IMG/VR virus record: IMGVR_UViG_3300036981_000049
Span: 1 to 22,110 of that record
Length of the DNA stretch: 22,110 bases
Strand: one strand, 5' to 3'
DNA from: a virus
Part shown: positions 266 through 5,070 of the stretch, in pieces
How positions within the stretch are numbered: the stretch's first letter is position 1
Layout of the letters: each line of letters begins with the position of its first letter
The notes under the pieces: generated by a model
The model's database searches: none
Told to the model about the DNA's origin: nothing
Seen by the model: only the letters and a program-made list of their open reading frames with translations
Made by a program: the position numbers and the translations under genes

Positions 266-380
266 GTTTACCCCATCGACAAAACATCAATTTACATGAT
301 AGCGATCCCTTTCGATCATTCGACAAAACATCCCTTTGCAGATTTCCCCATCGATCAAACAAAGCTTTGCAGGTTTACCG
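266..380 (+). repeat. Interspersed short repeats (CGACAAAACATC, CTTTGCAG, GGTTTACC)
   Basis: CGACAAAACATC occurs at 277-288 and 321-332. CTTTGCAG occurs at 334-341 and 365-372. GGTTTACC occurs at 266-273 and 372-379. A CCCCATCGA core occurs near 271 and 347. CGACAAA is the reverse complement of the TTTGTCG that ends each 18-bp repeat further downstream, so the two repeat families may be related in inverted orientation. This mosaic resembles arrays of replication- or packaging-initiator sites, but no function can be assigned from sequence. Confidence 0.55.
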
Positions 381-513
381 TCACAGATTCCTTTGTCGCC
401 GGGTGTCCTGTCACAGATTCCTTTGTCGTGTCACAGATTCCTTTGTCGCCGGGTGTCGTGTCGTGTCACAGATTCCTTTGTCGGCTGGTGTCGTGTCACA
501 GATTCCTTTGTCG
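381..513 (+). repeat. Five copies of an 18-bp iteron-like repeat
   Basis: TCACAGATTCCTTTGTCG is present without mismatch at 381-398, 411-428, 431-448, 466-483 and 496-513. The start-to-start distances are 30, 20, 35 and 30 bp, all multiples of five, because the spacers are built from GTGTC/CTGTC-like pentamers. Exact conservation of the 18-mer amid variable spacers suggests either recent expansion or selection for a binding site. Iterons at replication origins and packaging sites look like this. Confidence 0.85.
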
Positions 514-680
514 GCTGGTGTCCTGTCGTGTCGGCGGCTGGTGTCGTGTCGTGTCGTGTCCTGTCCTGTCGTGTCGGCGGCTGGTTGTCCTGTCCTGTCG
601 GCTGGTGGTTACCGGGTTACCGTTGCGCGGTGTCGTGTCCTGTCGCGCAACCGTGTCGTGTCGTGTCTATGCGTGTCTAT
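503..680 (+). repeat. Adenine-free GTGTC/CTGTC pentanucleotide tract
   Basis: From 503 to 610 the + strand contains no A at all. Bases 541-575 are seven exact pentamers, GTGTC or CTGTC. A 21-base block beginning CCTGTCGTGTCGG and ending CGGCTGGT occurs twice (522-542 and 565-585). GTGTC units continue to about 680 with a few A residues. All three stop codons need A, so every + frame stays open here and the long overlapping open frames are artefacts. The strand asymmetry would give an adenine-free RNA if transcribed rightward. Confidence 0.85.
622..651 (+). other. Inverted repeat GTTGCGCG / CGCGCAAC
   Basis: An 8-bp perfect stem (622-629 with 644-651) closes a 14-base loop made of GTGTC-type sequence. 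No run of T follows, so it is not an ordinary intrinsic terminator. Its role is unknown. It could be a DNA cruciform or protein-recognition site in the repeat region. Confidence 0.45.
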
Positions 681-733
681 GCGTGTCTGGTGGCGCGGTG
701 AGCGACCTACCCCCGGCATCGAGGGCACCAGGG

Positions 734-756: not shown

Positions 757-823
757 ACCCCCAGTATCGCAGTAAAATACAAAATCTGACCACAAAACAA
801 GCATTTACACGTTACCGATATGC

Positions 824-852: not shown

Positions 853-881
853 TTTACATTTAAACCCCCCATTGTTATCAT
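853..881 (+). promoter_or_regulatory. Putative sigma-70 promoter for the late operon (near-leaderless terS)
   Basis: TTTACA (853-858) and TATCAT (876-881) are separated by exactly 17 bp, each one mismatch from consensus. Transcription would begin near 888-890, one to three bases before the terS ATG at 891. No Shine-Dalgarno sequence precedes that ATG, unlike most other genes in the window, so a leaderless or almost leaderless message would fit. This remains a pattern-based prediction. Confidence 0.4.
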
Positions 882-890
882 AAATGTACC

Positions 891-1433
891 ATGAAAACGA
901 ACCCTTCGACACCTGCACCAACATTACCGGATTGGCTCAAGCCGGAACCGTATCCAACGACTCGAACCAAACTCGAACTCGTCGAAATGACGTATGAAAA
1001 CCTGTTCGAGTCCTCCATTGATGCTATCCAGGGTGGGCATTCACTCGCCCACATTATCGAGAATGACCCTCGTAACATCGAGTTCGGTAGGTTTCTCCGA
1101 TGGATTAACAAGAACAAGGCCAGGAGGCAACGCCTGAAAGAGGCTCGCGAGATCGCCGCAGACATCCTGGTGAGTCAGACCATCAGCATTGCCGATAACG
1201 CTGACCCGGTGACCGCCAACGTCGCGAAGTTGCAGATCGACAGCCGGTGGAAGACTGCCGGTAAGTGGAATCCTAACCAGTATGGTGATAAGCAACGTAT
1301 CGACATCAGAACGGGCGAGTTGAGCGAGGCCGAACTCGACAACTTCTCGACTGAGGACTTGAAACGGATGATAATAGAAGGTGAGTACGAAAACTTGCCC
1401 GATGACAACGACACCGAGGAGGATGGAGAGTGA
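891..1433 (+). CDS. terS: Terminase small subunit (Sf6-type)
   Basis: A 180-residue protein that would recognise the phage genome and hand it to the large terminase for packaging. Residues about 45-75 look like a helix-turn-helix (SLAHIIENDPRNIEFGRFLRW, shortened). They are followed by a basic helix with KARRQR, a segment ending ADILVSQTISIAD, and then LQIDSRWKTAGKW with a nearby YGDK. The last pattern is typical of Sf6-like small terminases, where a helical oligomerisation core follows the DNA-binding domain. The C-terminus is very acidic (DDNDTEEDGE), a usual site for contact with the large subunit. Position as first gene before a large terminase supports the call. The ATG at 891 has no Shine-Dalgarno sequence but is the only sensible start, and the promoter just upstream may give a leaderless message. 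Confidence 0.85.
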   Translation: MKTNPSTPAPTLPDWLKPEPYPTTRTKLELVEMTYENLFESSIDAIQGGHSLAHIIENDPRNIEFGRFLRWINKNKARRQRLKEAREIAADILVSQTISIADNADPVTANVAKLQIDSRWKTAGKWNPNQYGDKQRIDIRTGELSEAELDNFSTEDLKRMIIEGEYENLPDDNDTEEDGE

Positions 1434-1998: not shown

Positions 1999-2534
1999 TG
2001 CACGATAACGATGGATCAAAGGTCTACTGGCGGGACACCGCCGCTGAAGCGTTGGGGAAGATGAACCGACCCCCACCTGACCCGACCCTTGAGCCTGACG
2101 AGAAGAACTTGAAGGCTGTCTTGACTCACTTGTCGAAAGAGATGTTGAATATGCGGGTTTACCTTGAGAGTTTTCCGGTTCCGCGTGTGGCTCCATCCCC
2201 GACCCACCCATCGATAACATCCCCTGCCACCTTTGAGAAGATTGTCGATGAGCGGTTGGCCTACTGTCGGCGCATCCTGCTGGCTAAGAACGAGGAGTAT
2301 TCCCGTAACGGTGACCGCCTTCACAACTTTCGGTCAGCCGCCCGGATACGCGACACCGACCCCATGACCGCGCTCCTGGGTATGAAGGTCAAGCACGATG
2401 TCAGTATCGACGACCTTGTCCTCGACTGTCTGGAGGGCAAGCCTGTCCACCTCGACAGACTCGCTGAGAAGATGACCGACTCGATCAACTACCTTCTGTT
2501 GCTGGAGGCTTTGATCCGTGAGCAACAAGCCTAA
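1995..2534 (+). CDS. DUF1599-like protein (nucleotide-modification-associated domain)
   Basis: A 179-residue protein. The C-terminal half has the pattern I associate with the DUF1599 / nucleotide modification associated domain 1 family: a helix with KNEEYSRNGDRLHNF, then AARI, MTALLGMKVKHDVSIDDLV, and a final EKMTDSINYLLLLEALI. Conserved Glu, Asn, His, Asp and Asn residues in these helices resemble those of all-alpha nucleotide-binding folds. Residues 1-85 are Pro-rich and look variable. The family is common in phages, but its biochemical role is not firmly established, so none is claimed. The start overlaps the previous stop (ATGATG). The end overlaps the large terminase by 17 bp, and its 3' end carries the terminase ribosome site. 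Confidence 0.65.
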   Translation: MMHDNDGSKVYWRDTAAEALGKMNRPPPDPTLEPDEKNLKAVLTHLSKEMLNMRVYLESFPVPRVAPSPTHPSITSPATFEKIVDERLAYCRRILLAKNEEYSRNGDRLHNFRSAARIRDTDPMTALLGMKVKHDVSIDDLVLDCLEGKPVHLDRLAEKMTDSINYLLLLEALIREQQA

Positions 2535-5070
2535 CGCGGCTAACATCCTCGCGGTACTCGCCAGGAGGGAGGCCGCTCGTAACTCGCTGGCGACCTTCTC
2601 GGCGACCTACCTGGAGGTGGTCCCCGCCGCGCATCATGTCCTGATGTGCAATATCATCGATAGGCTACTGGGCGATGAGTGGGATGACCTTATTATCTGT
2701 ATGCCGCCGGGCAGCGCGAAAGCCCTCGCACTCGACACACCTGTTCCCACACCTTCAGGTTGGACTCGGATAGGCGACCTCCGGCCTGGAGACACCGTGT
2801 TCGATGAGAATGGGACTCCTTGTTCCGTTACCTGGAGAAGTCCCGTCTTCCGTAACCGTCCTGTCTATTCGGTAACGACCGACTGTGGGGATGAGATCAT
2901 TGCTGACCACGACCATGAGTGGTTGGTTCGATTGTGTGGAAAAAAGAGGAAGGAACTCAAAGGAGTCGATAGGTGGGGGAAACCGAACGATCATTACAAA
3001 CAGATATTGAAGGATCGTTCTCCAGGATTCAAGATTAAAGAGACTCATCAGCTTTGCAAGAAACGGTCAAAACGCCCTATGATTCAGCGTGCCGCCGCTC
3101 TTGAACTCCCTGATACGTTCCTCCCCATCGACCCTTATTTGCTCGGTGTTTGGCTCGGAGATGGAACCAGTGGGTCAATGTCAATCACTTCCGGTGATGA
3201 AGACCGAGAGTGGATGCGGGAGGAACTGGCACGACTTGGATACACCACCAGCGACCGGAAACAGACTTATTTGTTCGGTATTCTTGATGTCCGTTATTTA
3301 TTCGTCAAGATGGGGCTTGTTCACAATCCCGCTGAGAATAATTTTGGGCGAAAACATATTCCAGAGGTCTACCTTCGAGGGTCATATCGGCAACGTCTAT
3401 CTCTGCTTCAAGGGTTGATTGACACCGATGGGACAGTGTGCAAGTCGAGAGGGTGTACGACTTTCACCAACACCAACCTCGAACTTTCTCTTCAATTGAG
3501 AGAACTTGTAAGGACTCTTGGTGTGAAGGCTGGATGGTCGGAAGGTCGTGCTATGCTGGATGGTGTTGACCATGGGCCGTATTATAATGTATCGTTCTAC
3601 CTGAAAGATTCCGCCAGACTACCAAGGAAGGCGATATTGACGCGAAATCAATACCGGACACCAAATACTTATATCGATGTCGTTCCAGTTGGGTTTGCGG
3701 ATACAGTTTGTATCGAGGTGGATTCACCCTCGCATCTGTTTCTTTGTGGGAAGTCTATGACACCCACTCACAACTCGTTCTACACATCGATTGCATTACC
3801 GGCGTACTTCATCGGCAAGAATCCCACCAAGACAGTCCTGACCGCCTCGCATGGCTTCGACCTCGCTGAGAAGTGGGGTAAGCGAGTGCGTAACATCGTC
3901 GCCAGTGATAAGTATCATCTTGCGACAGGGGTTAAACTGTCCAGCGACAGCCGCGCCGCCGCGCAATGGACAACGACCAAGGGTGGGGAGTTTTTCGGTG
4001 TGGGTTGCGGTGGTGGTGTCCTGGGAAGGCGTGGTGACCTAGTCGTCATCGATGATCCCATCTCCGGTTGGGAGATGGCGCAGTCTGCGACACAGTTGAC
4101 CAAGCTTCACCAGTGGTACGAGACAGACCTTCTCAGCCGGTTAAAGCCGCACGGTAAGATTGTGTTGATCTGCCAGCGTCTTGCCCGTAACGACCTCGCT
4201 GGTTACATTATGGACAGGAACGCGGCGAGTGCCACCCGCCGTCTCAAGACCCTCATATTACCAATGGAGTGTGTCGATGAAGACAACGACCCCCTTGGTC
4301 GATCTATTGGCGACCGCCTGTGGCCCGAATGGTATACCCCTGAGATGGTCACCGACTTTAAGCGAGATGACTTCATCTGGCGTACAATGTACCAACAAGA
4401 GCCTCCTGCCGACGACGGAGCATGGGTCAACACAGACGACATCCAGTTCCGACCTACCCCTCAAATAACACCGGGAACGCCTATTTATGGAGCATCAGAC
4501 CTTGCCTTGTCCGTTAACTCCGGCGACTACACAGTACATGCGTTGGTGGCTATCGATTCCGAGGGAGATTGGGACATCTTTCATTGCCAACGAAAACGGT
4601 GTGACCCTGATGAATCATCGGCAGATTTGGTTAATCTGTGTGCAACATACACTCCGAACGAGTGGCTCATTGATGACGACAACGCAAGCAAAGTATTTAT
4701 GCCGCTTGTGGCGACCAAGGCGCGGCAACTCGGTGTCCCAGTTCCCTGGAAACCTCTCCCGATAAGAGGCCAAGACAAGGAGACACGCGCCGCCGCTCTC
4801 CGGGGTCAGTTCAAACGCCGTAAAATCTATATGCCAGCCGATGCACCGTTCGCCAGATGGCTTGTGCCGGAACTCATCAAGTTTCCCAACGCTGAAGGGC
4901 AGGGAGTCGATGATGGAGTCGATACTTTGTCCTTGCTAGGTCGCCGTTTATCCGCTATATCTTCTAAATATACACCCCCACCCCCGAAGAAGCTCCCAAC
5001 CATGTCTGAGATGACATTAGAGGGGCTTTGGGACACCGCCCCGAAACAATCGAGGAACAGACGGATATGA
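2518..5070 (+). CDS. terL: Terminase large subunit interrupted by an intein
   Basis: The packaging motor ATPase and nuclease, translated as an 850-residue precursor. Removal of the intein (residues 69-419) leaves a 499-residue enzyme, a normal size for the family. The ATPase P-loop is MPPGSAK (62-68) joined after splicing to SFYTS (from 420). Walker B is LVVIDDP, with Asp512 and Asp513. The RNase H-like nuclease shows Asp661 (YGASDLA), Asp719-721 (LIDDDN) and Asp802 (DDGVDTLS), which would bind metal and cut the concatemer. The start is GTG at 2518, chosen because GGAGG lies nine bases upstream (2504-2508) and the N-terminus then begins directly in the usual helical region. The gene overlaps the upstream gene by 17 bp and the next gene by ATGA. 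Activity should require protein splicing, since the insert splits the P-loop. Confidence 0.95.
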   Translation: MSNKPNAANILAVLARREAARNSLATFSATYLEVVPAAHHVLMCNIIDRLLGDEWDDLIICMPPGSAKALALDTPVPTPSGWTRIGDLRPGDTVFDENGTPCSVTWRSPVFRNRPVYSVTTDCGDEIIADHDHEWLVRLCGKKRKELKGVDRWGKPNDHYKQILKDRSPGFKIKETHQLCKKRSKRPMIQRAAALELPDTFLPIDPYLLGVWLGDGTSGSMSITSGDEDREWMREELARLGYTTSDRKQTYLFGILDVRYLFVKMGLVHNPAENNFGRKHIPEVYLRGSYRQRLSLLQGLIDTDGTVCKSRGCTTFTNTNLELSLQLRELVRTLGVKAGWSEGRAMLDGVDHGPYYNVSFYLKDSARLPRKAILTRNQYRTPNTYIDVVPVGFADTVCIEVDSPSHLFLCGKSMTPTHNSFYTSIALPAYFIGKNPTKTVLTASHGFDLAEKWGKRVRNIVASDKYHLATGVKLSSDSRAAAQWTTTKGGEFFGVGCGGGVLGRRGDLVVIDDPISGWEMAQSATQLTKLHQWYETDLLSRLKPHGKIVLICQRLARNDLAGYIMDRNAASATRRLKTLILPMECVDEDNDPLGRSIGDRLWPEWYTPEMVTDFKRDDFIWRTMYQQEPPADDGAWVNTDDIQFRPTPQITPGTPIYGASDLALSVNSGDYTVHALVAIDSEGDWDIFHCQRKRCDPDESSADLVNLCATYTPNEWLIDDDNASKVFMPLVATKARQLGVPVPWKPLPIRGQDKETRAAALRGQFKRRKIYMPADAPFARWLVPELIKFPNAEGQGVDDGVDTLSLLGRRLSAISSKYTPPPPKKLPTMSEMTLEGLWDTAPKQSRNRRI
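2722..3774 (+). mobile_element. Class 3-type intein with LAGLIDADG homing endonuclease, in terL
   Basis: An in-frame insert of 351 residues between Lys68 and Ser420 of the terminase. It begins ALALDTPVPTPSGW, so residue 1 is Ala rather than the usual Cys or Ser. Block B has HEW (His133, Trp135). Block F has DTVCIEV with Cys398 where standard inteins have Asp. Block G ends PTHN, with Thr417, His418 and Asn419, followed by Ser420. Trp at B:12, Cys at F:4 and Thr at G:5 are the WCT signature of class 3 inteins, which splice through the internal block F Cys. The two endonuclease motifs are LLGVWLGDG (208-216) and LLQGLIDTDG (296-305), with both catalytic-type acidic residues kept. The central part looks richer in A and T than the exteins. 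By known family behaviour it should excise itself and home into intein-free terL genes. Confidence 0.93.

Follow-up and report, generated by a model that had tools for sequence, protein, structure and literature searches.

A fast-changing tandem array beside a conserved candidate packaging-start site upstream of the terminase genes in a clade of uncultivated phages

Ahead of the packaging genes of an uncultivated phage, one strand runs for more than a hundred nucleotides without a single adenine. Does this tract serve the phage, or did it come about as a by-product of repeat growth? Our comparison with related phages indicates that the striking tract itself is ordinary, and that the part worth following is a conserved core located about 95 bases beyond it. 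The window (the whole stretch of DNA that was analyzed) is a linear virus record of 22,110 bases. Its main genes run rightward, with terS and terL followed by the portal and capsid genes (Table 1). According to capsid and portal, the closest isolates are Mx8, Mx9, and BUCT555; the identities with Myxococcus phage Mx8 and Stenotrophomonas phage BUCT555 are 59-65% for the capsid and 37-40% for the portal. No TerL relative was detected in the host genomes scanned, and the scan of host genomes by capsid returned two MAG contigs only, from Burkholderiaceae and Brevundimonas.

A preliminary description of this DNA placed the adenine-free run in a pentanucleotide satellite that includes seven pentamers in a row and a 21-base block present twice. 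The run, the pentamers, and the repeated block were all recovered exactly (Table 1). The run measures precisely 108 nt and is the longest of its kind in the window, the runner-up being 52 nt. When the window was simulated with a first-order Markov model (300 runs), the longest adenine-free run averaged 32.1 and reached 50 at most. Adenine makes up only 7% of 371-700, and with this local composition runs of 108 nt or more have P = 0.0065, so that the run mostly reflects the composition of the units present there. It is a real outlier, largely accounted for by the make-up of these units. While the pentamers are real, the array that contains them is compound and not a simple satellite. Repeats set in at about position 380, and the array combines GTGTC and CTGTC pentamers, GGCTGGTGTC-type decamers, and an adenine-containing 18-mer (TCACAGATTCCTTTGTCG), whose five copies (from 381, 411, 431, 466, and 496) precede the adenine-free part. 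Nearly all the units terminate in TGTC, and a tandem-array test on the window showed that imperfect short head-to-tail units are present. Near the left contig end, the low-complexity leader also contains two imperfect 38-base direct repeats (TTTTGTAAAATGG.CAAC.....TTAAATTCTCTGGGA) at about 118-155 and 167-204.

Table 1. Features of the window, followed by core and array loci in other contigs. Positions refer to the window unless a contig is named.
Feature	Position	Strand	Description
Low-complexity G+T-rich leader at contig end	1-240	.	39% T, 8% C; GGTGGTTGG repeat
Compound tandem array	371-688	.	TGTC-ending units; Tandem Repeats Finder, exact repeat list, and unit parse
Adenine-free run	503-610	+	Part of the array without the A-containing 18-mer
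21-mer CCTGTCGTGTCGGCGGCTGGT	522-542; second exact copy 565-585	+	Exact repeat list
Seven consecutive pentamers	541-575	+	GTGTC x4, CTGTC x2, GTGTC x1
Inverted repeat GTTGCGCG / CGCGCAAC	622-651	.	Array units in loop; z -1.45, not clearly better than shuffles
Conserved core CCTACCCCCGGCATCGAGGGCA	706-727	+	Candidate packaging-start site; clade consensus CCCACCCCC.GGGTCg.GGGCA
Weak match to second block	770-787	+	A/T-rich; candidate small-terminase binding block, from sequence
Sigma-70-like promoter TTTACA-17-TATCAT	853-881	+	Consensus match only; about 10 bases before terS
terS	891-1433	+	Sf6-type small terminase; PHROG 1482; Pfam PF20901 Sf6_terminase, E 3e-18
terL	2518-5070	+	PHROG hits; interrupted by an intein (2722-3774)
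Core in contig L185			Before Terminase_6 terL
Core in contig L188			Between HNH and terS/terL pair
Core in contig L189			Before terS-terL
Core in contig L192			At HNH/terS junction
CGTGT array	L083 2821-2870; L091 7178-7210		Two near-identical contigs

Three rightward ORFs span the tract (296-775, 336-701, and 367-789), and they stay open across it because all stop codons contain an A. Their products matched no family in Pfam, an Rfam search of the region returned nothing, and the array is apparently non-coding. It is also probably upstream of the transcript's start, since the sigma-70-like promoter is located after it; an RNA lacking A would then arise only via read-through from further left. 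Single-strand folding of the tract revealed nothing unusual.

Single-sequence scans with TerS and TerL retrieved no relatives. Relatives were gathered through an alignment of TerL proteins, and the clade was defined as the TerLs that are 49-95% identical to the lead sequence of this alignment; the window TerL is 53-59% identical to the clade TerLs. For many relatives, the lowest-complexity stretch of the locus is found upstream of terL. In all 21 loci, complexity over the 400 bp that precede the core falls below the locus median; each locus contributes 400 bp or whatever the contig holds, and a few loci are close pairs. The array units differ among relatives: GCGGGGCGGC in L015, GTGGCGT in L100, TTTGTGGTCTTTTTGGTGG in L114, GGCAGGTC and TCGATCTCGGGCACAG in L115/L116, and GGTGGTGAGGAT in L118. 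A search for the window's own tract, as proposed in the preliminary description, found it in none of the relatives, and the 18-mer has no exact match across the viral contig collection. Thus, the position of the array is kept while its sequence is not, as expected under slippage and unequal exchange with little constraint.

The earlier suggestion of a slippage or recombination hotspot is supported by the clade, in which relatives carry unrelated arrays and close genomes differ in theirs. L115 and L116 share 99.3% identity over 6.6 kb, and their arrays differ in the order and number of units, both contigs starting inside the array. Similarly, L083 and L091, which come from an unrelated phage and are 99% identical, differ in the copy number of CGTGT in an array located between genes. 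The search retrieved no close relative of the window itself, and thus none with a copy-number change in the window's own array. Microsatellite or slipped-strand arrays of bacterial and phage intergenic regions likewise consist of short, imperfect, non-coding tandem units that change fast between near-identical genomes. The present arrays differ from these in that unrelated units recur at one place throughout the clade, next to a conserved site.

Two other expectations about the tract did not hold. That a satellite is unexpected in a phage proved overstated: four-copy runs of GTGTC occur in 10 stretches of unrelated viral contigs, and four-copy runs of CTGTG, a control pentamer of the same composition, are commoner (42), so GTGTC is not special. 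It had also been suggested that the strand asymmetry could favor R-loops or unwinding, which is unsupported as a conserved function. Across relatives, the 400 bp upstream of the core show AT skews from -0.51 to +0.21 and GC skews from -0.12 to +0.36; as neither has a common sign, asymmetry was rejected as a conserved trait.

The arrays of some relatives deserve separate mention. The repeats at L111 1-140, L121 2420-2620, and L122 4620-4870 seem to overlap in part with the coding end of the upstream reverse-strand gene and are therefore weaker examples of a non-coding array; their expansion may also alter a coding end. In L103 (1-200) and L105 (1-180), five or more copies of a 36-base unit with TCTACTAATTGGTTAATACCATAG immediately precede terL.

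Side-by-side reading of the upstream regions first brought up a recurring C-rich/G-rich word. To avoid picking sites by eye, we performed a de novo EM search on the upstream regions of 19 loci. The motif CCCACCCCC.GGGTCg.GGGCA reached a log-likelihood ratio of 161, compared to 66-71 for shuffled regions. A control region in conserved coding sequence scores 159, indicating that the core is about as conserved as coding DNA. For 15 of 16 loci, a leave-one-out PWM analysis ranked the hand-picked, sense-strand site first, usually by a margin of about 10 bits. Allowing up to three mismatches, the core is present in one copy per genome where it is detected (7/16), and there are zero copies in the reversed control. 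The window core is divergent: its held-out score is 20.8, and shuffled windows reach up to 24.0. As shuffled windows can equal this score, its identity rests on position and family.

The core precedes the first packaging gene, which is terS in the window and terL directly in L101, L104, L113, and L118, and in most loci it lies about 90-390 bp ahead of the first late gene. A single conserved site is thus found just upstream of the terminase genes, as in a cos-type arrangement. A second block, CCacGAatTTt.aAaatT, follows the core after 30-42 bp in most loci; in an EM search of the 150 bp downstream of the core, it scored 85.7 compared to 53-63 for shuffles. Long clade contigs continue through the core unbroken. 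Contig ends near the core were considered as a clue to termini and discarded, because they are confounded by assembly breaks within the arrays.

Outside the clade, an exact 16-mer of the core was detected in eight contigs, in four of which it is beside terL, terS, or HNH genes (Table 1); roughly 2% of random sites would be expected so close to packaging genes, a figure that we estimated and did not compute. Relative to terL, the core points the opposite way in three of these four contigs. Klebsiella phage RCIP0075 is one of three weak matches obtained in the phage collection and, alone among them, matches perfectly over 17 bases; its core occupies the gap that separates an HNH gene from terL, with terL about 600 bases away. 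An HNH endonuclease is usual in HK97-type cos phages. HNH (PF01844) scored above the cut-off in 0/13 clade contigs, which may be incomplete. We also applied the core PWM to the ends of HK97 and three actinophages (Vash, Eyre, and BaileyBlu) and obtained no match there, which indicates that the core is not a general cos signature. A C-rich/G-rich word about 17 bp from the right end of BaileyBlu resembles the core only when a gap is allowed, and it was not counted as evidence.

Among known systems, the cos region of HK97 offers a likeness in order, with a non-coding site before terS in which a conserved part is followed by an A/T-tract block (PMC11331095). In that phage, the sequence bound by the small terminase spans 15 bp, includes a key G and an A-tract, and is situated 15-29 bp away from the cut (PMC11331095). 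The present locus differs from HK97 in that the ends of HK97 lack the core sequence, no HNH was detected in the clade, and the spacing to the A/T block is longer. The window TerS belongs to Pfam Sf6_terminase, which recalls the pac sites of Sf6/P22-type headful phages; Sf6 packages by headful. However, the conserved site is here intergenic and outside terS, and in some relatives it stands directly before terL. Mx8 has no comparable gap before terL, and the stretches scanned upstream of the terminase genes of Mx8 and BUCT555 lack the core.

The explanation that we prefer, with about as much doubt as confidence, is a slippage-born array, probably lacking a sequence-specific function, next to a core at which packaging starts. 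The array would have arisen as a few short TGTC-ending units multiplied by slippage during replication and by unequal recombination, and the tract would lack A because its units have none. Its own sequence probably serves no specific function, and the tract would be tolerated in the gap ahead of the packaging operon. The C-rich/G-rich core and, in most relatives, the A/T-tract block would form a two-part site, and this site is most likely where terminase recognizes or cuts the DNA to begin packaging, in a cos- or pac-like manner. The tract had been proposed to mark a packaging start; judging from sequence, this role probably falls to the core and not to the tract itself. What makes a packaging start the best reading of the core is its position near packaging genes outside the clade, its placement in RCIP0075, and the HK97-like order of the site. 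Against it stand the lack of HNH hits in the clade, the Sf6-type TerS, the PWM result at known ends, the reversed orientation outside the clade, the long contigs that run through the core, and the divergence of the window core. The comparison yields a testable packaging-start candidate for a large group of uncultivated phages, and it suggests a search recipe: look for the non-coding word that is best conserved ahead of the terminase genes, beside fast-changing repeats.

Other roles can be envisaged for the array and the core. If the array itself were the packaging or small-terminase binding site, its pentamers would be repeated recognition boxes, as in P1 pac, with its hexamer repeats, or lambda cosB, with its R sites. 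Such boxes are known in packaging sites, the conserved core and terS come immediately after the array, and low-complexity DNA is found there in all relatives. However, phages with terminases 57-95% identical have unrelated units, and the arrays differ even between genomes that are 99.3% identical, so that terminase specificity would have to shift equally fast; we regard this role as quite unlikely. That the tract is an artefact of assembly, at a contig end prone to repeats, is more improbable still. The contig does begin with low-complexity sequence, and the contigs of several relatives likewise break off in their arrays, but the units of the window are imperfect and interleaved, the contig is continuous across them, and arrays occupy the corresponding position in relatives. 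The copy number of the array in the window contig could nevertheless be wrong.

As for the core, a regulatory site of the late operon (for an activator or antitermination, with the array as upstream filler) is an unlikely alternative. The spacing between the core and the late genes in most loci would suit it, as would the promoter-like sequence after the core in the window, but the core stays close to packaging genes in unrelated phages, in either orientation, which one would expect less of an activator site specific to one operon. It is unlikely that the region is a replication origin, in which the A/T block would unwind, the core and repeats would be initiator sites, and strand asymmetry would ease opening. 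A non-coding gap with repeats and an A/T-rich block would suit an origin, and in contig G001 the cumulative AT skew reaches its lowest point at the core. It does not do so in G003, though, no iteron is common to the relatives, and outside the clade the core adjoins packaging and not replication genes. A broader form of the packaging-start reading seems to us just as unlikely as an origin: CCCACCCCCYGGGTCG would be a packaging signal common to unrelated terminase lineages (Sf6/Mx8-like, phiC31-like, other actinophage types, and an enteric phage type), flanked in one uncultivated clade by hypermutable arrays that result from breakage and repair near the cut site. If one core did serve terminases of unrelated lineages, packaging signals would move between phages more readily than has been assumed.

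Downstream of the site, the intein in the window terL comprises 351 residues with a LAGLIDADG domain (LAGLIDADG_3) and interrupts the Walker A motif (MPPGSAK / ALALDTPV...THN / SFYTS, slashes marking the junctions). In relatives' TerL without the insert, the motif is uninterrupted (APPGSAK-S). The first intein residue in the window is Ala, not Cys or Ser.
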